NCBI GenBank assembly: GCA_945875845.1
Contig: CAMCMB010000005.1
Coordinates: 1-64,000 of the forward strand
Direction of reading: 5' to 3'
Origin: Pirellula staleyi DSM 6068
GTDB lineage: Bacteria > Planctomycetota > Planctomycetia > Pirellulales > Pirellulaceae
DNA: 64,000 nucleotides
Shown here piece after piece: positions 15,692 through 62,980 of the stretch. Position numbers and translations under genes: made by a program. How positions within the stretch are numbered: position 1 is the stretch's first letter; each line of letters starts with the position of its first letter. Under the pieces are notes generated by a model. That model searched no databases and was not told where the DNA came from. It was given only the letters and a program-made list of their open reading frames with translations.

Positions 15692-15802
<111 letters not shown>

Positions 15803-15925
15803 GGAGTCACGAGGGCGGTAGCCCATCGTGACCCATGTTGGATTGGTAAATGTCAAAATATTTGCAGCACAATTGTAAATTGTAGGCATCGTATATCACT
15901 GCAGGGTTTAAGTGCAAGATACCGA

Positions 15926-18812
<2,887 letters not shown>

Positions 18813-19368
18813 TCGGAATCTCAAACTTGAACCCAATCTCACAACCTTTAACTTACGCCAAAAGCCACTGCATCGAGCCGCATCCGATATCCGTTCGCAT
18901 ACCCATCGACATCGCTCCAATTCACATTGGTGCAAGCCTTGGGCTGCATTTTCGCCTATCTATTTTCAATTGCGCTCGTTCGAACCAGTATCAATTACTC
19001 CGGTCATCCTTTCGAACAACCAAATTTACTTCACCGGTTTCAAACTTTCATTGCTGTGCACCCCTCCCTCTAACTTACGTTTCGAGCAAGGAAAATGCAC
19101 AATAAGATGCCATCTACCAATCCAACCAAATTGTCAAAGATCAATTCCCCAGTTTGCGAAACCGTTCAGGTTCCACTTGCGAGGGGTCACCATGTTAAAG
19201 GTTTGAGCGACTCTCGTCAACTGCAATTCCTTTTTTTCTTTGGTGACTTTTCCGCTGACACGTTTTCGTCGCCTGAGCGACTGTCCCGGTCAAGGGAGCG
19301 AGAATCATCCCGATTTCTGTTCAGGCCGCAAGGCCTTTTTCGAACTTCTTTCAAAATGATTTTCGAGT
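18813..19368 (-). other. tRNA-Ala to 23S internal transcribed spacer
   Basis: A 556-bp spacer within the rRNA unit. I see no further tRNA in it. It is AT-richer than the 23S gene and presumably holds the leader helix flanking 23S, which would be a processing site. Confidence 0.6.
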
Positions 19369-19441
19369 GGAGGTGAAGGGACTTGAACCCATGACCCTCT
19401 GGTTGCAAACCAGATGCTCTCCCAACTGAGCTACACCCCCG
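19369..19441 (-). tRNA. tRNA-Ala (anticodon TGC)
   Basis: 73 bases. The acceptor stem GGGGGTG pairs with CACCTCC, the D arm is TAGCTCAGTTGGGAGAGC, the anticodon stem-loop is TCTGG-TTTGCAA-CCAGA (anticodon TGC), and the T arm holds GGGTTCAAGTCCC. CCA is not encoded. It sits between tRNA-Ile and the 23S gene. Confidence 0.96.
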
Positions 19442-19554
19442 AAACAAGGCCTCAAGTGCTTTCGCATCGTCAACGCCTTTTTCTAAATTACCACATCGCT
19501 GGCAATTGAAAAGTCGAAATCCATCGACCCTTCGTTTCGCCAACACTGTTCTAA

Positions 19555-19628
19555 TGCGCACGCCTGGATTCGAACCAGGGACCTCGTCGTTATCAGCGAC
19601 GCGCTCTAACCAACTGAGCTACGCGCGC
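19555..19628 (-). tRNA. tRNA-Ile (anticodon GAT)
   Basis: 74 bases. The acceptor stem GCGCGCG pairs with CGTGCGC, the D arm is TAGCTCAGTTGGTTAGAGC, the anticodon loop is TGATAAC (anticodon GAT), and the T arm carries GGTTCGAATCC. CCA is not encoded. It is the first gene of this 16S-less rRNA unit. Confidence 0.96.
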
Positions 19629-19871
19629 AAACCAAAAAATCTGTCAGGAATTGACTTGTCAGAATTTTGGACAGGGAATCCTATCGCAAGCTTCCGGTCT
19701 GTCAACGCTTATTCGCGACTTCCCGTTTGTGCTGATAACCTCAAGGACCGAACGTATCGACCAAACGGCGAGTTAGCATGAGCTAAATTCCGTTTACGTC
19801 GATTTCTCGAGCGAAAAAAGCAAGCCTCTCTCGCCAAGTTTTCTTCCAGAAATGGAATGACAAGTCCGACC

Positions 19872-47901: not shown

Positions 47902-48081
47902 CTGGCTGAGTGGTGGCGTCTACGGTTGGTGAACATCCAACGCCTTGCATTTTAGCTTTAAATTTGAGCTATAATTCGGACAGCTTTTTTGTCCTATGTT
48001 CAAAACGGCTTGGTAATGCGTTGGTATGTTCGGTCTTGGACCGTCGTGGCAGGTTGTTTATTCAAGTAGTGGAGTACGGCA

Positions 48082-50352
48082 ATGTATCGACGGCGGTTTC
48101 TTGATTTGAGTCTGACTGGAGTCGCGTTGAGTGCTACGCTCACCCACTGGTCCGTTGGAGCACCGCCGAACGCACCTTCCACCGACGGTGAAAACCTGGT
48201 CGATTGGATTCATCGGGTTCGCGGCGAGTGGGATGAGGATCTGTACAAGAAAATGTTGGGAGCCGCTAACGATTTCAAGGAGGGTGACGCAATCGTTGGC
48301 GTCGCCGCTCCAACGGAAGCGTTGAGAATCCAATCGCGGGAGTTGCTAGCGAACACGACACTCGCGCAAATTGATGAACTCTCCCCAGAACGCGATGAAC
48401 TCTTTCATTTCATCGGTGATGCGGTGGACGCAGACCAGCAGACTCGTATCGGCGAGATGAGTATCGGGGACTTGAAGCGGTTTTTGTTGGAACGAAGCGA
48501 AGCTGAAATCTATGCGATCCGCCAAGGACTATCGAGCGACGTAATCGCTTGTGTTGTCCGGCTGATGACAAACGACGAATTGGTGCGAGTGGGCTCGAAA
48601 ATCTTCAATCCGCTCCCTGGCACGAATCTTGGTGCTCGCGGCTACATGGGAGCCCGCGTTCAACCGAATTCACCTACCGACAATGTCGATGACATTCGCT
48701 GGCAGGTGTTCAATGCGTTTGCATTTGCCGTGGGTGATGTGCTTGTTGGTACGAATCCGGTATCAAGCGACCCCGACTCGGTAGCAGCCATCGAATTGGC
48801 TCTTCAAGATGTCCTCGAAACCTTCGGAATCGCTGAGATACTACCGTATTGCGTTTTAGCGCACATCGACGTGCAAGCCGAAGCCGAACGGCGATTCCCA
48901 AAGTCCACGGCCCTTTGGTTTCAGAGTATCGCCGGCAACGATGCCGCCAACGGTACGTTTGATATCTCCGTCGACAAGATGGTCAAGCACGCTCGCTCGC
49001 GGACTGGCAAGTTTGCTCTCTACTTTGAAACCGGACAGGGAGCAGACTTCACGAATGGGCATGGCAAAGGCTTGGATATGGTCTTGCTGGAATCTCGCAA
49101 GTACGGATTCGCCCGATCCCTCGCCAAGACAGTGGCAGACGAGAAGGAAGCGAGTGGAGTCGCTCAACGTCCTTGGGTACATTTGAATGACGTAGCTGGA
49201 TTCATTGGACCCGAAGTCTTTCGTTCCAAAGAGCAACTCATCCGTTGCTGTCTGGAAGACATCGTAATGGGCAAACTGCATGGGTTGATGATTGGTCTCG
49301 ATATTTGCACAACCCTGCACATGGACGTCACGTTGGACGACCTGGGATGGTGCATCGATCAAATCATGCCGGCGAACCCGGGTTACCTGATGGCACTGCC
49401 AACTCGCATCGATCCAATGCTTGGTTACCTCACGACGAGCTTTCATGACCATGTCCACATTCGTGAAAAATTTGGCTATAAAGTCGACGATCGAATGTGG
49501 GGATTCTTTCAGCGTCTTGGTGTCGTCGACGCAGCGGGGAAACCGACCCAACACTTTGGGAATCCCGCATGGGTCTACGCCCAGTACTGCCGCCTGAAAG
49601 GGGATGCACGTAGCGAGAAGCAAATCCAGGAAGAGTCGGCAGCACAAATGGCGATGGTTCGATCAAGAGGTCTTTTCATCGCGGAAGGTTTTAGAGAGGA
49701 ACCCTCGAAACCGAATCCCGAACTGTCGAAAGAGATCCATCGTATCTATGCAAGTGCCAAGGAATGCATTTGGAAGGAGTTGACCAAGGAAGCCGAACAC
49801 AACATTCCGCGAGTTGTGCCATTGACGACGCTTTCAACCGATCGGAACGACTACATTCTGCATCCGACGTCGGGCGAACGACTCTCCGAAACTTCGGTTG
49901 CAAAAGTTCGCGATTTACGAACGACACACAACGGGCTATACAATGCTCAAATCGTCATATCCGATGGTCTGAATGCAATGGCTGTAATGACCGAAGACCA
50001 ATTGATGAGGCTCCTGGTGTCTCTTCGGCAAGAACTGCAGACTGCCGGATTTGCTGTTGCTCCGGAGCATCTGCTTGTTCATTCAGGCAGAGTTCGAGCC
50101 GGCTACCGTATTGGGGAAACGCTCTTCGGTGGTTTGCCAGCCAAGCGAACGGTTCTTCATGTGATAGGCGAGCGACCTGGGAGCGGCCACAACACGCTTT
50201 CGATTTACATGACTACTGCCGAGGGAAACGATTGGGGGATTCCTGACCGGATCGACCACAACATTACCAAAGTCGTATCGGGAATTGCCTTGACGGCGCT
50301 GCAACCCGAAACCGCTTCAAAAGACGCAACGAAAATTCTTGCGTCCGCCTGA
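48082..50352 (+). CDS. eutB-eutC: Ethanolamine ammonia-lyase, fused large and small subunits (EutB-EutC), with Tat-like signal
   Basis: A 756-residue fusion. Residues 40-500 match EutB, the catalytic subunit: R192 and Q194 in GARVQPNSP, N225 in GTNPVSSD, E316 in YFETGQGAD and D407 in GLDICTTLH are the counterparts of the E. coli active-site residues. Residues 540-756 match EutC: LHPTSGERLSETSVAKVRD, VVISDGLNAMAV-type VISDGLN, LVHSGRVRAGYRIGETLF, VLHVIGERPGSGHNTLSIYM. EutB and EutC are separate genes in most bacteria. The N-terminus MYRRRFLDLSLTGVALSATL looks like a twin-arginine signal (RRxFLDL, hydrophobic core, SVGAPP). The enzyme needs adenosylcobalamin and converts ethanolamine to acetaldehyde and ammonia. 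GGAG precedes the ATG. No eut shell or transport gene is adjacent; no cobalamin riboswitch was seen. Confidence 0.9.
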   Translation: MYRRRFLDLSLTGVALSATLTHWSVGAPPNAPSTDGENLVDWIHRVRGEWDEDLYKKMLGAANDFKEGDAIVGVAAPTEALRIQSRELLANTTLAQIDELSPERDELFHFIGDAVDADQQTRIGEMSIGDLKRFLLERSEAEIYAIRQGLSSDVIACVVRLMTNDELVRVGSKIFNPLPGTNLGARGYMGARVQPNSPTDNVDDIRWQVFNAFAFAVGDVLVGTNPVSSDPDSVAAIELALQDVLETFGIAEILPYCVLAHIDVQAEAERRFPKSTALWFQSIAGNDAANGTFDISVDKMVKHARSRTGKFALYFETGQGADFTNGHGKGLDMVLLESRKYGFARSLAKTVADEKEASGVAQRPWVHLNDVAGFIGPEVFRSKEQLIRCCLEDIVMGKLHGLMIGLDICTTLHMDVTLDDLGWCIDQIMPANPGYLMALPTRIDPMLGYLTTSFHDHVHIREKFGYKVDDRMWGFFQRLGVVDAAGKPTQHFGNPAWVYAQYCRLKGDARSEKQIQEESAAQMAMVRSRGLFIAEGFREEPSKPNPELSKEIHRIYASAKECIWKELTKEAEHNIPRVVPLTTLSTDRNDYILHPTSGERLSETSVAKVRDLRTTHNGLYNAQIVISDGLNAMAVMTEDQLMRLLVSLRQELQTAGFAVAPEHLLVHSGRVRAGYRIGETLFGGLPAKRTVLHVIGERPGSGHNTLSIYMTTAEGNDWGIPDRIDHNITKVVSGIALTALQPETASKDATKILASA

Positions 50353-50534: not shown

Positions 50535-52460
50535 ATGAACCCTACCTCAATTCTCTGCGCATGTGCGTCGATGTTCCTCACGATCCTGAGCGGACCGGCA
50601 CACTCTGCGGATCTCGCCAAACCCAACTTCGTCATTATCTACATCGATGACCTCGGCTATGCTGACATCGGGCCTTTCGGAGCGACGAAACAGAAAACGC
50701 CAAACCTAGATCGAATGGCTCGCGAGGGAATGAAACTGACTAGTTTCTACGCAGCCCCGGTCTGTTCGGTTTCGCGAGCGCAATTGCTTACCGGTTGCTA
50801 CGGTGCTCGTATTTCTGTCCCCGCCGTGTTTTTCCCCGGCAACGCAAACGGTCTGAATCCCGCCGAACGAACAATTGCCGAACACCTCAAGGACAAAGGC
50901 TATGCAACCGCTTGTATAGGCAAGTGGCACCTCGGGGATCAACCTGAGTTCCTTCCAACCAAACAAGGATTCGATCGCTACTTTGGCATCCCATACTCCA
51001 ACGATATGCAACGCAAGGCTGTGGGTGGCACCGAAAAAGTTTCACCGCTGCTACGCGATGATAAAGTGGCAGAGTTTCTCACCGACGAGCAGCAGAGTCG
51101 CATTGTCGAACGGTACACCGACGAAGCCACTCGATTCCTGCGCGACAGCCAAGACCAACCGTTCTTTCTCTACTTGCCGCATTCGGCCGTTCACACACCC
51201 ATCTGGCCCGGCGAAGCCTTTCGAGGCAAGTCGTCCAACGGCCGATTCGGTGATTGGGTCGAGGAGGTCGATTGGAGCGTAGGAAAAATCCTCGACACAT
51301 TGCGAGACTTAAAGCTCGACGAAAAAACCCTCGTCCTCTTCACCAGTGACAATGGGCCTTGGTTGGTCAAGGGCTCCGACGGTGGCAGTGCACTCCCATT
51401 GCGAGGCGGCAAAGGAAGCACTTGGGAAGGGGGCGTTCGAGTACCTACCATCGCTCGCTGGCCAGGCAAGATCAAAGCCGGCAGCGTGTGCGACAGCGTT
51501 GCTGGCACGATCGACATGCTCCCTACGTTGGTCGAACTAGCAGGCGGCGCTGTATCCTCCAAGAATATCGCTGAAACAACCATCGATGGTCGCGATATCT
51601 CGAAATTGCTGTTAGGACAGAGCACGCAATCACCTCGCGAGGCTCATTACTACTTTTCCGGTTACAATCTCCAGGCGGTCAGGCAAGGGCCATGGAAACT
51701 TGCGATCGCGACTCAGCCTGAAACGATGGGTAAAGGGGTGGAGTCCGACGCAGGTAAGAATCCGCGACTTTACAATCTCGACGAAGAGATCCGTGAGCAA
51801 ACCAATCTGGCAGATAAGCATCCGGAAATAGTTGCCAAACTTCGGTCTCTGGCCGAAAAAATGGACGCGGAGATCGGCGGCAAAAACCCTAGCTCGCGTC
51901 GTCCCGCCGGGGAGGTTGCGAACCCAAAAACGCTTTATCCTATGGCCGATTCGGCTCCAAACGGAAACGCTCTCAAGTCGAATGCGGCAACCAAGTCCGT
52001 TTCGCTTGCAAACCTATCGATCGGAGAGGCTACGCAATCCGATAGAGTTCCCCAAGTCGGTGGGCAGCCGTTTACCGTTTCCTGCAAAGTAAAAACCGAC
52101 CAGCGCGATGCAATCTTAATCGCCCATGGCGGTCTCTCGGCCGGCTATGCATTGCATTTACGCGATGGCCAAGTCGTCTTTGCTGTACGCCATGGTATCG
52201 GCGACAACTTAGCCGAGATTGTTTCCCCAACACCTATTTTAGGCAATACCAAGATCACGGCGTCGTTAGCTGCAGACCACGTTCTCACTCTGAGCGTCAA
52301 CGACAAAGTTGTGGCTCAGAAGAAAGGGGTCGCTTTCGTTCCTCGCCAGCCAGCAGAAGACTTTTGCCTTGGCCATGATAACGAGAAACCAGTTGCGATC
52401 TATTCCGCAAAAGAACCTTTCAAGGGACAAATCAAGGAATTGCAAGTCACGTCGCCTTGA
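50535..52460 (+). CDS. Secreted sulfatase with C-terminal LamG-like domain
   Basis: A 641-residue exported type I sulfatase. A signal peptide (MNPTSILCACASMFLTILSG) precedes the domain. The metal site starts NFVIIYIDDLGYADIG and the modification motif is CSVSR at residues 77-81, followed by AQLLTG. The usual motif is CxPSR or CxAxR; here position 3 is Val, so conversion of C77 to formylglycine may be less efficient. GKWHLGD and VLFTSDNGP are present. Residues 470-641 form a beta-rich LamG/concanavalin-like domain that may bind glycans. The enzyme removes sulfate esters from extracellular polysaccharides. Confidence 0.9.
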   Translation: MNPTSILCACASMFLTILSGPAHSADLAKPNFVIIYIDDLGYADIGPFGATKQKTPNLDRMAREGMKLTSFYAAPVCSVSRAQLLTGCYGARISVPAVFFPGNANGLNPAERTIAEHLKDKGYATACIGKWHLGDQPEFLPTKQGFDRYFGIPYSNDMQRKAVGGTEKVSPLLRDDKVAEFLTDEQQSRIVERYTDEATRFLRDSQDQPFFLYLPHSAVHTPIWPGEAFRGKSSNGRFGDWVEEVDWSVGKILDTLRDLKLDEKTLVLFTSDNGPWLVKGSDGGSALPLRGGKGSTWEGGVRVPTIARWPGKIKAGSVCDSVAGTIDMLPTLVELAGGAVSSKNIAETTIDGRDISKLLLGQSTQSPREAHYYFSGYNLQAVRQGPWKLAIATQPETMGKGVESDAGKNPRLYNLDEEIREQTNLADKHPEIVAKLRSLAEKMDAEIGGKNPSSRRPAGEVANPKTLYPMADSAPNGNALKSNAATKSVSLANLSIGEATQSDRVPQVGGQPFTVSCKVKTDQRDAILIAHGGLSAGYALHLRDGQVVFAVRHGIGDNLAEIVSPTPILGNTKITASLAADHVLTLSVNDKVVAQKKGVAFVPRQPAEDFCLGHDNEKPVAIYSAKEPFKGQIKELQVTSP

Positions 52461-56374: not shown

Positions 56375-57757
56375 ATGAATCGCAAGTGTAAACTAAGATG
56401 GACCGCAATGACATTGCTCGCCGTCGTAGCCTGTCGGCAGTTGATTGCCGCAGAGGAATTAATTGCAGCGGCGGATTTGACTCGCCCTAACATCATTCTG
56501 ATCATGGCGGACGATTTTGGGTATGAATGCGTCACCGCGAACGGCGGGCAATCGTATCAGACACCCAATTTAGACCGCCTCGCTGCCAGTGGAGTACGTT
56601 TCGAACAGTGCCACGTGCAGCCTCTTTGTACGCCGACCCGCGTACAGCTCATGACAGGTAAGTACAACATTCGGAATTACCTCAACTTCGGCACGCTGCC
56701 ACGGACCGAGGTAACGTTTGGCAACCTAATGAAGCAAGCTGGCTACGCGACTGCGATTTGTGGTAAGTGGCAACTTGGGCGCGAGGTCGATTCGCCACAG
56801 CATTTCGGTTTCGATGAGTCCTGCCTTTGGCAGCATACGCGGCGGCCTCCTCGTTATGCAAATCCTGGCCTGGAGTACAATGGCGTCGAAAGGAATTTTA
56901 CGAATGGTGAGTATGGCCCAACGCTCATCAATGATTTTGCACTCGACTTCATCGAACGCAACAAGCAACGACCCTTCATGCTCTACTATCCGATGATCCT
57001 GACGCATAACCCATTTCAGCCAACGCCGGACAGCGCAGACTGGGATAAAACAGTCAACAACGAAGAGCAGAAAGTTGCACCGAAGCATTTTGCTGCCATG
57101 ACTGCTTACATGGACAAGATGATTGGTAAGGTGGTAGACAAGCTCGATGAATTGCAGATTCGCGATAATACGTTGCTGCTGTTCATCGGTGACAACGGTA
57201 CCAACGTCGGTATAACGAGTCGCTTTCAAGGTGCCGACTATCGCGGAGGTAAAGGGAGTACAACAAAACGCGGAACCCATGTGCCGTTCATCGCCAGTTG
57301 GCCCGCGAAGATGAATGCTGGCAGCGTTAACCGAGACCTTATTAGCAGTACGGATTTTCTTCCAACGCTTTGTGACGCAGTTGGTATCGCAAAGCCGGCG
57401 AATATTGATGGAGTTAGTTTTTTGTCTCGACTCAAGGGTGAGACAGGCCTATCTCGGGAATGGCTCTATTGTTGGTATTCACCACGACAAAAGCTCGACC
57501 TGACCGTTCGCGAGTGTGCGTTCGATAGTCAATACAAACTTTACCGCACGGGAGAATTATTTGATCTTGCTGCCGATCCATTCGAGAAACAGGCGCTAAA
57601 CCGCAACAAGCCACAGGGACAAGAAACCCTGGCTGCTCTAAAACTGCAGCGCGTGCTGGATCAATTTAACAGTGCACGACCTGTCGAACTCGATCGAGCC
57701 TTCGAGCAAATGAATAGCGACAAGCCTAAAAAGAAAAACGAAAAGAACGAAGAATGA
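56375..57757 (+). CDS. Secreted sulfatase
   Basis: A 460-residue type I sulfatase with signal peptide (about 1-26). Residues NIILIMADDFGYECV hold the metal ligands and the formylglycine motif is CTPTR at 85-89, then VQLMTGKYN. GKWQLGR and LLFIGDNGTNVG are present. A Lys/Asn-rich tail (KPKKKNEKNEE) ends the chain. GGAAGTG precedes the ATG. It heads a run of four sulfatase genes and one symporter gene; the next frame begins at the stop. Confidence 0.92.
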   Translation: MNRKCKLRWTAMTLLAVVACRQLIAAEELIAAADLTRPNIILIMADDFGYECVTANGGQSYQTPNLDRLAASGVRFEQCHVQPLCTPTRVQLMTGKYNIRNYLNFGTLPRTEVTFGNLMKQAGYATAICGKWQLGREVDSPQHFGFDESCLWQHTRRPPRYANPGLEYNGVERNFTNGEYGPTLINDFALDFIERNKQRPFMLYYPMILTHNPFQPTPDSADWDKTVNNEEQKVAPKHFAAMTAYMDKMIGKVVDKLDELQIRDNTLLLFIGDNGTNVGITSRFQGADYRGGKGSTTKRGTHVPFIASWPAKMNAGSVNRDLISSTDFLPTLCDAVGIAKPANIDGVSFLSRLKGETGLSREWLYCWYSPRQKLDLTVRECAFDSQYKLYRTGELFDLAADPFEKQALNRNKPQGQETLAALKLQRVLDQFNSARPVELDRAFEQMNSDKPKKKNEKNEE

Positions 57758-57791
57758 AAAGTCCGTCGGCTAGGGATCACTCGATTCATTC

Positions 57792-57848
57792 GTGGGATAG
57801 GCTTCCAGCCTGTCGAGCTGAAAATGACAGGCTAGAAGCCTATCCCAC
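57792..57848. repeat. 57-bp palindrome between sulfatase genes
   Basis: GTGGGATAGGCTTCCAGCCT and its inverted mate AGGCTAGAAGCCTATCCCAC flank a short centre. The same unit occurs as a single arm at 15419. It lies between two sulfatase genes and inside the spurious upstream frame extension of the second. Confidence 0.85.
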
Positions 57849-57867
57849 CTCCCAACGAGAAACACAC

Positions 57868-59355
57868 ATGAAAATGCTAATTTGGTCCCTTTTGCTTTGC
57901 GCAGTCGTCCTGCCTACTTATGTAGCCGCATCGGATCGCCCTAACATCATCCTTATCTTTGCGGACGACCTCGGCTGGAAGGACGTGGGCTACCAAGGTA
58001 GCGATTTTTTTGAGACACCCAACATCGATCGACTTGCATCGGAAGGAATGGTGTTCACCGCAGGCTATGCTGCTGCCGGAAACTGCGCGCCGAGTCGAGC
58101 CTGCTTGCTCTCGGGAAACTATACTCCCCGGCATCATGTCTATGCCGTCGGTAGTATGGATCGCGGAGACAAGGGAGCTCAGCGATTAGTCCCTATTCCG
58201 AACAAGAACGGTCTAGCGAAAGCGAATGTTACCGTTGCGGATGCGTTGAAAGCCTCTGGATACGTTACCGGTCATTTTGGCAAATGGCACCTTGCCGGCA
58301 AGGACGGTGCGCTGCCAACACAACAAGGGTTCGATGTGTCGTTCGATTCCTTTGGGTTGGGGGACGAGCAAGAAGGTTCCGAAGGTAACAAAGCTGGCCC
58401 ACCCTCAGATCCAAAAGGCGTTTTCACACTCACAACGAAGGCCTGCGAGTTCATCCAAGCCAATAAAGAAAAACCCTTTTTCTGTTACCTTGCACATCAC
58501 GCGATCCATTCGCCACTCCAAGGCCGCCCCGAATCGATTGCTAAATTCAAAGCCAAAACGCCCGGTTCCCAACATTCGAATCCACTCTATGCCGCTTGCG
58601 TGTATGATCTCGATGCAAGTGTTGGCCTTTTGCTCGAAAAGCTGAAGGATCTAGAGCTCGACAAGAACACGTTGCTAGTCTTCACCAGCGACAATGGCGG
58701 AACACAACAGTCTTCGCAAGAGCCCTTGCGAGGAAATAAAGGCTGCTACTACGAAGGTGGAGTTCGAGAGCCTTTCATCGTTCGCTGGCCAGGTGTCACC
58801 GAACCTAGCAGCAAGTGCAATGTACCGGTGATCAACATTGACTTATTTCCTACATTCCTAGCGGCAGCAGGTGCTGATGTGCCCTCCAACATAACTCTCG
58901 ATGGTGAAAGCCTTGTGCCGTTGCTGCGCGGAGAAAACACGCTCCAGCGCAACTCCATCTTCTGGCACTTTCCAGGTTATCTCGACTCACCCGTGATCCG
59001 AGGCCGCGAACTCGATGTTCGGACAGGGTTCCGCAGTCGCCCAGTGAGTGTGATTCACAAAGGTGATTGGAAACTTCACCTTTATCATGAAGAATGGCAA
59101 CTCGACGGCGGACGGGATAAACTTGAGATCAACAACGCCGTCGAGCTATACAACCTTTCCGACGACATCGGAGAGCGGAATAACCTGGTAGCCAAGAACG
59201 CTCCAAAGAGGGACGAACTGCTAGATGAACTATTGGCGTGGTTCCAATCCACCAATGCGTTGATACCAAACGAGCGAAACCCCAACTATGATGCGGTCGC
59301 GGGGACCAGTCAGGCCAAGAATCATTCCAAGAAAAACAAGAACAAAAAACCATGA
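57868..59355 (+). CDS. Secreted sulfatase
   Basis: About 495 residues from ATG 57868; the longer frame from 57754 passes through the palindrome and is rejected. A signal peptide (MKMLIWSLLLCAVVLPTYVA) precedes NIILIFADDLGWKDVG. The formylglycine motif is CAPSR at 73-77, then ACLLSGNY. GKWHLAG and VFTSDNGG follow. The C-terminus is Lys/Asn-rich. ATGA overlap with the next gene shows translational coupling. It resembles planctomycete sulfatases of the arylsulfatase-A type. Confidence 0.92.
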   Translation: MKMLIWSLLLCAVVLPTYVAASDRPNIILIFADDLGWKDVGYQGSDFFETPNIDRLASEGMVFTAGYAAAGNCAPSRACLLSGNYTPRHHVYAVGSMDRGDKGAQRLVPIPNKNGLAKANVTVADALKASGYVTGHFGKWHLAGKDGALPTQQGFDVSFDSFGLGDEQEGSEGNKAGPPSDPKGVFTLTTKACEFIQANKEKPFFCYLAHHAIHSPLQGRPESIAKFKAKTPGSQHSNPLYAACVYDLDASVGLLLEKLKDLELDKNTLLVFTSDNGGTQQSSQEPLRGNKGCYYEGGVREPFIVRWPGVTEPSSKCNVPVINIDLFPTFLAAAGADVPSNITLDGESLVPLLRGENTLQRNSIFWHFPGYLDSPVIRGRELDVRTGFRSRPVSVIHKGDWKLHLYHEEWQLDGGRDKLEINNAVELYNLSDDIGERNNLVAKNAPKRDELLDELLAWFQSTNALIPNERNPNYDAVAGTSQAKNHSKKNKNKKP

Positions 59356-61097
59356 TCATCCCACCTTCGCGTCCAATCATTCGTGTCCTAGCTCTCGCAT
59401 TTCTGGCCGCCATTGGAACACCGATTCTCGCTTCCAATTCGCCGCCGAACATTATCCTGATCATGGCCGATGACGTTGGCTATTCGGACATAGGTTGTTA
59501 TGGCGGCGAGATCCATACTCCCAATCTCGACGCCCTCGCGCAAGGTGGCCTGCGGTTTACGCAGTTTTACAATACAGCTCGCTGTTGTCCAACACGTGCC
59601 GCCCTGTTGACGGGACTCTATTCGCACCAGGCGGGGATCGGTCATATGGTCGACGACTGGAGCACGAAAGTCGGCGATGCCTATGCGGGTGATCTCAATA
59701 AGCGGTGTGTCACGATTGCCGAGGCAGTCAAATCCGCCGGTTACGCGACGTACATGACGGGCAAATGGCATGTGACCAAGCAAGCCAAGCCCAAGAGCGA
59801 ATCCGATAAACATAATTGGCCATTGCAACGCGGCTTTGATCGATTCTATGGAACGATCCACGGGGCAGGCAGCTTCTACGATCCCAACACACTGGTTCGC
59901 GACAATCACTTGATCTCGCCGTACGCGGATTCCGAGTACCAACCCAAAGAATTCTATTACACCGATGCCATCAACGATCACGCGGCCAATTTTCTCACCG
60001 AGCATCATCAGCAAAACAATGACAAACCATTCTTCCTGTACATGGCTCACACAGCTGCGCATTGGCCCATGCATGCAAAGGAATCGGACATCGCAAAAGT
60101 CAAGGGCCGATACGACGCTGGCTACGACACCATCCGAGCCGCGCGTCTTGAAAAGATGAAGCAGATCGGCTTGCTCGATCCTCGCTGGCAAATTTCGCCG
60201 CAAGCTGGCAATTGGAGCAACGTCAAAAACAAGGAATGGGAGTCTCGCTGCATGGAAGTCTATGCTGCAATGCTCAGCTGTATGGACCAAGGGATCGGGC
60301 GTCTTGTCGATACGCTCAAGAAGAATGGCCAATACGAGAACACATTGATCTTGTTCTTGCAAGACAACGGTGGATGCGCCGAAGTGGTAGGCCGAAACGG
60401 ACCGTTCGTTCCGCGTAGCGAATCGCCTTCGCTGCCGACGTTACCCAAGGATTATTTTCAACCGGATATGATTCCGAAACAGACTCGCGATGGCTATCCG
60501 ATGCGCCAAGGCGAAGGAGTCATGCCCGGTGCTGCGGACACGTATATCGCCTATGGAAAGTCATGGGCTAACGTCAGCAATACTCCCTTTCGTGAATTCA
60601 AACATTGGCAGCACGAAGGGGGAATCAGCACGCCCCTGATCGCTCATTGGCCAAAAGGAATTCCTGCCAGACGTCACGGCCAGCTGGAGCGCCAGCCGGG
60701 TCATCTCATCGATCTGATGGCGACTTGCATAGACGTTTCGGGTGCCAAGTATCCAACCGAGTACGATGGCAATCTCATTCAGCCGATGGAGGGTGTGAGC
60801 CTTTCCCCAGCGTTTGCTGGCTCTCCGATCCATCGCCCGAATCCTCTCTTTTGGGAACACGAGGGCAATCGCGCCGTTCGTATGGGAGAATGGAAATTGG
60901 TCTCGAAACATCCGGGCGACTGGGAGCTCTACAACATCGAGGCGGACCGCACCGAGATGAACAATCTTGCCATACAATATCCCCAACCCCTCAAGGAAAT
61001 GTCTGGTCGGTGGGACGAGTGGGCCAAACGTGTGGGTGTTATGCCATGGCCGCTCGATGGGGGAAATAAAAAGAACAACAAGAATGGCTCGCAGTAA
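59352..61097 (+). CDS. Secreted sulfatase, long-insert type
   Basis: A 581-residue sulfatase overlapping the previous stop (ATGA). A signal peptide (about 1-28) precedes NIILIMADDVGYSDIG. The motif CCPTR is at 78-82, followed by AALLTGLYSHQAGIGHM. GKWHVTK, HTAAHWPMHAKE and LFLQDNGGCAEV are present. Longer insertions around 165-300 and 330-390 distinguish it from its neighbours and suggest a larger glycan substrate. The tail ends in KKNNKNGSQ. Confidence 0.92.
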   Translation: MIIPPSRPIIRVLALAFLAAIGTPILASNSPPNIILIMADDVGYSDIGCYGGEIHTPNLDALAQGGLRFTQFYNTARCCPTRAALLTGLYSHQAGIGHMVDDWSTKVGDAYAGDLNKRCVTIAEAVKSAGYATYMTGKWHVTKQAKPKSESDKHNWPLQRGFDRFYGTIHGAGSFYDPNTLVRDNHLISPYADSEYQPKEFYYTDAINDHAANFLTEHHQQNNDKPFFLYMAHTAAHWPMHAKESDIAKVKGRYDAGYDTIRAARLEKMKQIGLLDPRWQISPQAGNWSNVKNKEWESRCMEVYAAMLSCMDQGIGRLVDTLKKNGQYENTLILFLQDNGGCAEVVGRNGPFVPRSESPSLPTLPKDYFQPDMIPKQTRDGYPMRQGEGVMPGAADTYIAYGKSWANVSNTPFREFKHWQHEGGISTPLIAHWPKGIPARRHGQLERQPGHLIDLMATCIDVSGAKYPTEYDGNLIQPMEGVSLSPAFAGSPIHRPNPLFWEHEGNRAVRMGEWKLVSKHPGDWELYNIEADRTEMNNLAIQYPQPLKEMSGRWDEWAKRVGVMPWPLDGGNKKNNKNGSQ

Positions 61098-61309: not shown

Positions 61310-61378
61310 CTAGCGCGTTCCGGCTGATATGGTGTCGAGTAGGGTCGAGTAGGATCGTACAGGTTGCAAAGGTCGTTC

Positions 61379-62980
61379 ATGCTGAATATCTCGGTCGTCG
61401 ATAGCGTTATTGTTGTCGTCTACGTTTTGCTGACACTCCTGCTTGGGATTTGGATTGGACGTGGACCGACCAATCTCTCAGGTTTTTTGGTCGGCGGTCG
61501 CAGTCTTCCTTGGTATGCCGTATTGGGTTCCATCGTTGCAACGGAGACCAGCGCTGTGACCTTTCTCAGTATTCCAGGGGTGATCTTCGCGAAGGGAGGG
61601 AATTTTAGTTTCTTGCAACTGGCAATCGGATTTGTGCTCGGGCGATTGATTGTGATTGCTTGGCTCATGCCTGGCTATTTTCGCGGTGAAATTCTGACCG
61701 CTTACGAAATACTCCATCGCCGGTTCGGCGGTCTTACACAACGTACCGCGTCGTTGATCTTCATGCTCACTCGCACCATCGCGGATGGACTGCGTTTGTA
61801 TTTGACAGGATTGGTTTTGAACAAGGTAACCAATTTCGATACGAGCCTGTGCGTTCTGCTCATGGGTGTTGCAACGATTATCTACTCAAGTCTCGGCGGG
61901 ATCAAAAGTGTAGTCTGGAACGACTGCATCCAACTCATCGTCTATTTGATTGGAGCGGTGGTCGCGATTGGTGTGATTGCCAACGGTTTGCCCAACGGAA
62001 TTCAGAGCATCGTTGACTATGGAAACCAAGAGCGCAAATTCGACATGGTGCAGTGGGCTTTTAGCTTGAAAACAGAGAACATTTGGGCCGGCGTGATTGG
62101 AGGCTGTTTCCTTTGCCTGGCAACGCACGGCACCGATCAGATGATGGTCCAGCGTTATCTTTGTTCTCGGAACGAAGGGCAAGCGAGACTTGCTCTCGGT
62201 TTGAGTGGACCGTTTATCTTTTTGCAGTTTGCACTTTTTTTGTTCGTAGGAGTAGGGCTTGCCGCCTACTACGCAAATGGTCTAACGAAACCGGCAGAGG
62301 TAAACGATCAAGTTTTTGCTTTGTTCATTGTCCAAGATATGCCGATTGGGATCTGCGGTATCACTTTGGCGGCCGTCTTTAGCGTGGCTATGTCGACGTT
62401 GTCTAGTTCGTTGAGCGGTAGCGCCTCCGCCATCGTCAACGACTTCATCAAGCCCGCGAAAGAGCGTCGACTCCAGGAACTTGGGCAACCAACCCAAGGA
62501 GACGCGATCGATGCGAGCTTGACGCGGGCCAGTCAATCGTGGACGGCGATTTTTGGTGTGCTCCAGATCGGAGTTGCCATCGTAGTTGCTTGGTCCCCCG
62601 CGTTCCAAAGTGACTCTATCGTGAGGCAAGTGATTACGGTGGCCGGTTTCGCTTCGGGATTAGTTCTGGGAGTCTTTATGTTGGGGCAGTCCAAACGCGA
62701 CTTCGCGCAGGCTTCTCTCTTAATTGGAATGTTGTTCGGGTTTGGTATCACGGCCTTACTGGTGTTAGTGCCAACTCCCTGGGCATTGAGACAAATTGGA
62801 ATTTCGGTAGCCGAGAGTTATTCCTGGCAAATTCATGGTTGGTGGGCAGCGGTGGTCGCAAGTCTATCAACTTGTACGATAGCATGGGTGGTCGATATTG
62901 CTTTTCCACAGGCAAAGCCGCATCCTACGCACACTGGCTCAACCGAGAGAACACGAAATAGAAAGCACAAAAAACAATGA
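61379..62980 (+). CDS. Sodium/solute symporter (SSS family)
   Basis: About 533 residues from ATG 61379; a TTG start 15 bases upstream is less likely. It has about 13 hydrophobic spans, with SSS signatures VGGRSLPWYAVLGSIVATETSAVTFLSIPG (around 35-65, shown in brief as VGGRSLPWYAVLGS and ATETSAVTFLSIPG) and a later GLRLYLTGLVLN. The C-terminus is basic. It imports a small molecule, probably a sugar released by the sulfatases around it. It overlaps the next sulfatase by ATGA. Confidence 0.92.
   Translation: MLNISVVDSVIVVVYVLLTLLLGIWIGRGPTNLSGFLVGGRSLPWYAVLGSIVATETSAVTFLSIPGVIFAKGGNFSFLQLAIGFVLGRLIVIAWLMPGYFRGEILTAYEILHRRFGGLTQRTASLIFMLTRTIADGLRLYLTGLVLNKVTNFDTSLCVLLMGVATIIYSSLGGIKSVVWNDCIQLIVYLIGAVVAIGVIANGLPNGIQSIVDYGNQERKFDMVQWAFSLKTENIWAGVIGGCFLCLATHGTDQMMVQRYLCSRNEGQARLALGLSGPFIFLQFALFLFVGVGLAAYYANGLTKPAEVNDQVFALFIVQDMPIGICGITLAAVFSVAMSTLSSSLSGSASAIVNDFIKPAKERRLQELGQPTQGDAIDASLTRASQSWTAIFGVLQIGVAIVVAWSPAFQSDSIVRQVITVAGFASGLVLGVFMLGQSKRDFAQASLLIGMLFGFGITALLVLVPTPWALRQIGISVAESYSWQIHGWWAAVVASLSTCTIAWVVDIAFPQAKPHPTHTGSTERTRNRKHKKQ

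Follow-up and report, generated by a model that had tools for sequence, protein, structure and literature searches.

A single-chain EutB-EutC ethanolamine ammonia-lyase with a candidate twin-arginine export signal, conserved in planctomycetes and some proteobacteria

The window analysed here, a 64,000-nucleotide stretch of a Pirellula staleyi DSM 6068 contig, contains a plus-strand open reading frame at 48082-50352 that encodes 756 amino acids and a stop codon, with EutB followed by EutC in a single frame. The EutB family PF06751 matches residues 56-490 (48247-49551; 437 bits, E 7e-131, cut-off 25), at the same place as in the genome search, and the NCBIfam EutB model NF011649 scores 571 bits against a cut-off of 554. 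The EutC family PF05985 matches residues 554-754 (49741-50343; 102 bits, E 4e-29, cut-off 25.8), a region that carries SDGLN, SGRVR and GERPG and was also located by the EutC alignment and by Foldseek, whereas the NCBIfam EutC equivalog NF003971 reaches 80 bits, below its cut-off of 230. Comparison with PDB sequences returned five distinct matches, all of them from ethanolamine ammonia-lyase: the large subunit accounts for two (best 6.4e-62) and the small subunit for three (best 1.5e-7). These results indicate that both subunits are joined in one chain, as the original prediction had claimed.

The N-terminus of the protein reads MYRRRFLDLSLTGVALSATL. Residues 1-26 (48082-48159, plus strand) resemble a twin-arginine (Tat) signal, with RRR at 3-5, FL at 6-7, D8 and the uncharged stretch LSLTGVALSATLTHWSVGAPP. 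The ATG at 48082 is the sole start codon that takes in the arginine pair, with four codons (WSTA, no start) back to the in-frame stop, and it is preceded at a distance of 7 nt by a Shine-Dalgarno-like GGAG (48071-48074). The 17 bases directly 5' of the ATG, including GGAG, are identical in two relatives, L002 and L003, both 91% identical.

An operon with the sulfatase gene that begins downstream at 50535 was considered and rejected; the downstream reading frames differ in L003, and the adjacency was taken as chance. The window holds four sulfatase genes (50535-52460 and 56375-61097), of which three are consecutive and overlap by 4 bases at each of the two junctions, followed by an SSF symporter gene (61364-62980). 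On the minus strand, 15693-19629 carries 5S and 23S rRNA, tRNA-Ala and tRNA-Ile, with no 16S match within the window; unlinked rRNA genes are known in planctomycetes. No cobalamin riboswitch was detected in the 64 kb at the Rfam gathering score.

An AlphaFold2 model built with 36 clade sequences has a mean pLDDT of 87.5 and a pTM of 0.86. The top Foldseek match is E. coli EutB (3abo_A, TM 0.88 by target length), and EutC is placed in the same model (3abo_D, TM 0.75; 3abo_B, 0.69; both by target length), so that the product of the reading frame is predicted to take the known ethanolamine ammonia-lyase fold. In the model, the junction between the two domains (residues 491-553; 49552-49740) is helical in 36 of its 63 residues (495-505, 512-528 and 546-553), with mean pLDDT values of 79-97 in ten-residue blocks, and is thus not a disordered linker. 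Values below 50 occur at residues 1-26, as expected of a signal, and at residues 445-448, a loop where the clade described below departs from other EutB.

The gene falls within a deep-branching clade of EutBC fusions. A search for EutB-EutC fusions across planctomycetes, which the original prediction had proposed, recovered this conserved clade and extended it to proteobacteria. It comprises 57 distinct rows, a row being distinct if it differs over the core stretch, so that some rows are near relatives, and covers planctomycetes, rhizobial megaplasmids, Bradyrhizobium, Haliea and one Elusimicrobia. The scan of genome contigs gave 32 loci. In the survey of the phylum (392 genomes), 30 genomes have EutB: 16 the form of this clade, 2 that of a second fused group and 12 a separate EutB. 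Within the genus of the window itself, 21 of the 27 genomes searched gave a match.

Outside the planctomycetes, clade homologues with about 48-50% identity are found on megaplasmids of Sinorhizobium, Ensifer and Pararhizobium; in several Sinorhizobium meliloti strains the megaplasmid homologue is 50% identical over 95% of the length. In S. meliloti ml56 (L094, positions 1-22148; CP140920.1, pSymA) the gene is annotated eutB and its neighbours encode a phosphoketolase, AdhP, a glycosyl transferase and a glucoamylase. In the part of the source available, an S. meliloti strain is described as having no cobamide-dependent enzymes except methylmalonyl-CoA mutase (PMC6759758). The remaining members come from one Bradyrhizobium, one Haliea MAG and one Elusimicrobia MAG. 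The close form is rare in these groups: the only genome to carry it among 249 from the Bradyrhizobium order is the one on which the search was centred, and the same holds for the 369 genomes from the Haliea class and the 149 from the Elusimicrobia phylum.

Thirteen loci, L030 and L032 among them, were dropped as incomplete or doubled before 128 distinct EutB cores were retained, and 99 of these entered the tree, a fixed step having removed part of the proteobacterial ordinary EutB. The 57 clade rows form one side of a branch with an SH-aLRT value of 100. The tree program warned that long branches meet near the base of the clade, so the placement of the clade relative to the intermediate row L135 and the second fused group is uncertain; the branches below and above L135 measure 1.2 and 1.03 changes per column. 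A fused EutBC with 38% identity and no signal is seen in L186 (1423-6412, genome G727), where it adjoins genes for an inositol-1-phosphate synthase, a CDP-alcohol phosphatidyltransferase and an FkbM methyltransferase.

The Haliea gene lies on an 8.3-kb MAG contig, although in the tree its row is placed within the planctomycetes. Mis-binning of the contig was considered and rejected, since its tetranucleotide distance to six other stretches of the MAG is 0.14-0.20, compared with 0.27-0.38 to nine planctomycete stretches, and since the genes around it include those for a DUF3313 protein, an epimerase, a transporter and a thiolase. The contig was therefore kept as Haliea, although it may come from another proteobacterium in the bin.

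The comparison of N-termini covered 57 distinct rows of the clade, among which L009 and L011 are truncated by contig ends, together with 75 distinct other EutB rows and L135; some starts were taken as GTG or TTG. Under a strict rule devised for this analysis, RR had to lie in the first 35 residues and be followed, starting within ten residues, by a 13-residue stretch free of D, E, K and R with a mean hydropathy of at least 0.6. Of the 57 clade rows, 46 carry such a signal, all 46 among the 55 whose start region is intact. It occurs in 1 of the 75 other EutB rows, 71 of which are intact, and in 66 of 646 neighbouring reading frames of at least 150 aa. A looser, 10-residue rule was drawn up after the strict misses were seen, six of which had RRR and a shorter stretch, and it is passed by 52 of the 57 clade rows, compared with 2 of 75 other EutB and 78 of 646 neighbouring frames. 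L135 fails. Since 66 and 78 of the neighbouring frames also pass, the rule alone is not specific, and the weight of the putative signal would lie in the contrast with other EutB and in its conservation.

The Tat consensus is S/T-RRxFLK, with which the clade residues after RRx agree. In the 52 passing rows, the position right after RRx is F in 28, V in 9, L in 6 and I in 3 (46 of 52), and the next is L in 35, V in 9 and F in 5 (49 of 52). The arginines R3 and R4 stand out in alignment A2 as the only nearly invariant positions among the first 54. Conservation is also seen between close relatives. Compared with L002, codons 1-20 contain 4 silent and 1 replacement change, whereas codons 21-40 contain 3 and 8; compared with L003 the corresponding numbers are 3 and 3, and 3 and 7. 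Against a Tat signal, the protein encoded in the window has D8 close behind FL and lacks AxA, a motif seen in 18 of the 52 passing rows; a very permissive cleavage pattern is present in 51. Conservation of the same kind of signal in planctomycetes and proteobacteria supports the original prediction that the N-terminus is Tat-like.

Five clade rows miss the looser rule: L009 and L011, cut by contig ends, and L031, L056 and L060. The Elusimicrobia row, L031, has a Sec-like N-terminus, with K/R, then FIFPLSALFSSMMIF, then AHA, which would support an extracytoplasmic place by another route. Homologues that lack the N-terminal extension, which had been named as grounds against the prediction, do exist, but they are rare: L056 and L060, two of the 57 clade rows, and the 38%-identical outgroup L135. 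L056 and L060 may be older or reverted cytoplasmic forms; a frame error hiding the signal was rejected for both, as no signal is present in any of the three translated upstream frames. On the tree found, the signal state changes at least three times, and a tree that unites the signal-bearing rows with L009, L011 and L031 in one clade is not rejected (p-AU 0.283).

With regard to catalysis, residues R192, Q194, N225, E316 and D407 of the window protein align with R160, Q162, N193, E287 and D362 of E. coli EutB, which we, like the original prediction, take to be active-site residues. All 57 clade rows retain the first four, and D407 is present in 56, the remaining row having a gap there. The five residues thus occur in every clade row that reaches them, in agreement with what had been stated for the window protein. 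In the EutC part, SDGLN, GRVR and GERPG are nearly invariant (54 rows). Near the kept active-site residues the clade has letters of its own, namely W279, T324, L412, T441, R/K442 and P445.

These substitutions bear on an alternative in which the enzyme is exported by the Tat system but acts on a related amino alcohol met outside, such as 2-amino-1-propanol or an amino alcohol of lipid head-groups or the envelope. The clade combines its long branches with clade-wide changes near the active site, some of which adjoin the low-confidence loop at 445-448, and the outgroup L135 lies beside genes for an inositol-1-phosphate synthase and a CDP-alcohol phosphatidyltransferase. Conversely, the five named active-site residues are unchanged, and relocation and fusion would also give long branches. 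Another substrate is unlikely.

Export of ethanolamine ammonia-lyase by the Tat system would require the translocase. The genome of the window gives a TatC match, and TatC is found in 22 of the 23 clade genomes examined, in 21 above the family cut-off; the exceptions are G405, a 92% complete MAG with no match, and G403, with a partial match below the cut-off.

The original prediction had also drawn on the lack of shell genes in the window. No shell gene (PF00936) is present in the window or elsewhere on its contig, C5, but the argument is weak, as the same genome has four matches on contigs C22 and C31, and shell genes occur in 21 of the 23 clade genomes examined, that of the window included. 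The main shell locus, on C22, contains genes for a class II aldolase, a lactate/malate dehydrogenase, an aldehyde dehydrogenase, acetate kinase, PduL and a DeoR regulator. This corresponds to the PVM type, with its class II aldolase for fucose and rhamnose, as described in the cited excerpt (PMC4207490), and not to a eut locus. Apart from it, contig C31 of the genome (L202, 7740-8456; G000) carries a gene with two BMC domains, and BMC-matching frames of similar length are found in several relatives.

The wide occurrence of shell genes would suit a second alternative, in which the N-terminus targets the enzyme to a microcompartment or anchors it in the membrane, keeping it at the cytoplasmic side. 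Encapsulation peptides are amphipathic helices, which an arginine pair followed by an uncharged stretch does not resemble. A precedent is the 20-residue N-terminal encapsulation peptide of E. coli EutC, mentioned in the section consulted of PMC11334477. However, the Haliea (G449) and Bradyrhizobium (G450) genomes combine an RR N-terminus with no detected shell gene, and the main shell locus in the genome of the window is, by the excerpt of PMC4207490, of the PVM type. Targeting to a shell or anchoring at the inner face of the membrane is improbable.

All 30 clade genomes considered for cobalamin adenosyltransferase encode one, PF01923 in 29 and PF02572 in 6, and the genome of the window has such a gene too. 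A full-length EutA is present in none of 34 clade genomes; the Haliea genome G449 has a 64-position EutA match at 27.9 bits, just above the cut-off of 27. According to the portion of PMC5821096 consulted, EutA uses ATP to deal with spent cofactor, which has to be either taken out or re-adenosylated. In 25 control genomes with ordinary separate EutB, full-length EutA was likewise found in none; 12 of them have short EutA matches (43-95 of 475 positions, 6 over the family cut-off), which are presumably other actin-fold proteins. The absence of EutA was therefore rejected as a mark of export, with which it is only consistent.

The lack of known cofactor renewal in the 34 clade genomes could also mean that the exported protein is not a catalyst and stores, ferries or senses cobamides outside the membrane. 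This is improbable to a somewhat greater degree than shell targeting, as every row that reaches the catalytic residues retains them and EutA is equally absent from all 25 genomes with ordinary EutB, so its absence is no mark of lost catalysis. The least probable reading, that the arginine pair is a chance or decayed signal on an ordinary cytoplasmic enzyme, could appeal to the two clade rows and the outgroup that lack it and to the tenth or so of neighbouring frames that pass the same rule, but it is hard to reconcile with the contrast between the clade and other EutB (52 of 57 versus 2 of 75) and with the scarcity of replacements in codons 1-20 (1 and 3, versus 8 and 7 in codons 21-40) relative to L002 and L003.

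Gene neighbourhoods were compared over 55 loci, whose flanks are of very unequal length and a few of which cover the same region twice. In 10 loci, which belong to one group of related planctomycetes, a gene of the PQQ_2 beta-propeller type lies directly upstream on the same strand (all five checked by Pfam are PQQ_2), separated from the EutBC gene by 9-34 nt in nine loci and overlapping the longest frame in L012; its product is probably exported, which would favour export of the EutBC protein as well. The neighbour in L025 and L031 points the other way: there a zinc alcohol dehydrogenase gene adjoins the EutBC gene, and enzymes of this kind are cytoplasmic, so that it would fit acetaldehyde removal inside the cell. 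Of four separate planctomycete EutB loci, three have an amino-acid-permease family gene nearby, presumably an ethanolamine permease, with the family checked by Pfam in two of them; the Bradyrhizobium locus lacks it (3 of 5 in all). This permease cluster has no member in any of the 55 clade loci, of which many have only short flanking sequence.

Taken together, these observations define a conserved ethanolamine ammonia-lyase branch with strong sequence evidence for Tat export. The reading we favour, with a probability of roughly two in three, is an adenosylcobalamin-dependent single-chain ethanolamine ammonia-lyase that would be exported folded by the twin-arginine system. The chain would fold in the cytoplasm and bind adenosylcobalamin, the adenosyltransferase for which is encoded in the genomes, at a site between the EutB barrel and the EutC domain. 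The folded enzyme would then cross the membrane via the Tat translocase and, in the periplasm, convert ethanolamine to acetaldehyde and ammonia. Both products are small and could diffuse back in, so neither an ethanolamine permease nor a microcompartment would be needed. Export itself, the bound cofactor, the substrate and the oligomer are what we infer from the sequences.

The Tat system moves folded, cofactor-bearing proteins, and in several cases described in the consulted part of PMC6708511 cofactor insertion is checked. A cofactor site built from two subunits needs co-transport or fusion, and in the reading frame at 48082-50352 the subunits are fused. Fusion would make sense for export, as one signal then carries both subunits at 1:1, but it is no proof of export, since the second fused group has a fusion without such a signal. 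The periplasm contains no ATP. Against export stands the removal of spent cofactor, which in known systems takes place with ATP (PMC5821096, consulted in part).

More broadly, the clade could represent adenosylcobalamin radical enzymes outside the cytoplasm, loaded with B12 inside and exported by Tat without reactivase, permease or shell, in which the outside reaction replaces the microcompartment in keeping acetaldehyde release away from the cytoplasm and in which fusion made export possible; for this wider proposal we regard the chances as even. To our knowledge, a fused and putatively exported EutBC branch is undescribed, and among the matches listed from the open-access literature there was no report of one. 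Known ethanolamine ammonia-lyases work in the cytoplasm or in a microcompartment, where ATP is used to renew the spent cofactor (PMC5821096, excerpt). If correct, the proposal would add a periplasmic adenosyl-radical enzyme and a second cellular solution to the acetaldehyde problem, and it would have to be asked how such an enzyme withstands oxygen, light and the loss of its cofactor.

Compared with known systems, the protein resembles E. coli EutB-EutC (3abo) in the fold of both subunits, the active-site residues and the EutC motifs GERPG, GRV and SDGL. It differs in being one chain instead of two, with identities of about 32% for EutB and 21-23% for EutC, in its Tat-like signal and clade-specific substitutions, and in having neither a surrounding eut operon nor a full-length EutA in the genome. 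The PVM microcompartment locus of planctomycetes is present in the same genome as the EutBC gene and also handles an aldehyde product, but it lies on another contig and, by the portion of PMC4207490 consulted, has a class II aldolase for fucose and rhamnose.

The second fused group (L051, L055, L087, L089, L092, L099, L123 and L150) likewise has EutB and EutC in one chain, in planctomycetes and proteobacteria. It forms a separate clade in the tree, subject to the long-branch warning, and shows no signal by the rule used here. EutA is found in 6 of 7 of its genomes, and in four loci the EutA gene lies directly upstream (neighbours in L174, L183, L192 and L193). All eight rows have Ala in place of D362 and Leu in place of N367, with GMAPCYTLH or GMAPCFTLH instead of GCDxCYTNH. 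As read from the alignment, loss of the active-site Asp suggests another substrate for this group.

Reductive dehalogenases use no adenosyl radical and have another fold. As described in the consulted part of PMC10624902, they also differ in their iron-sulphur clusters and Co(I) chemistry, but they (for example PceA) resemble the proposed enzyme in being corrinoid enzymes that are moved across the membrane by Tat.
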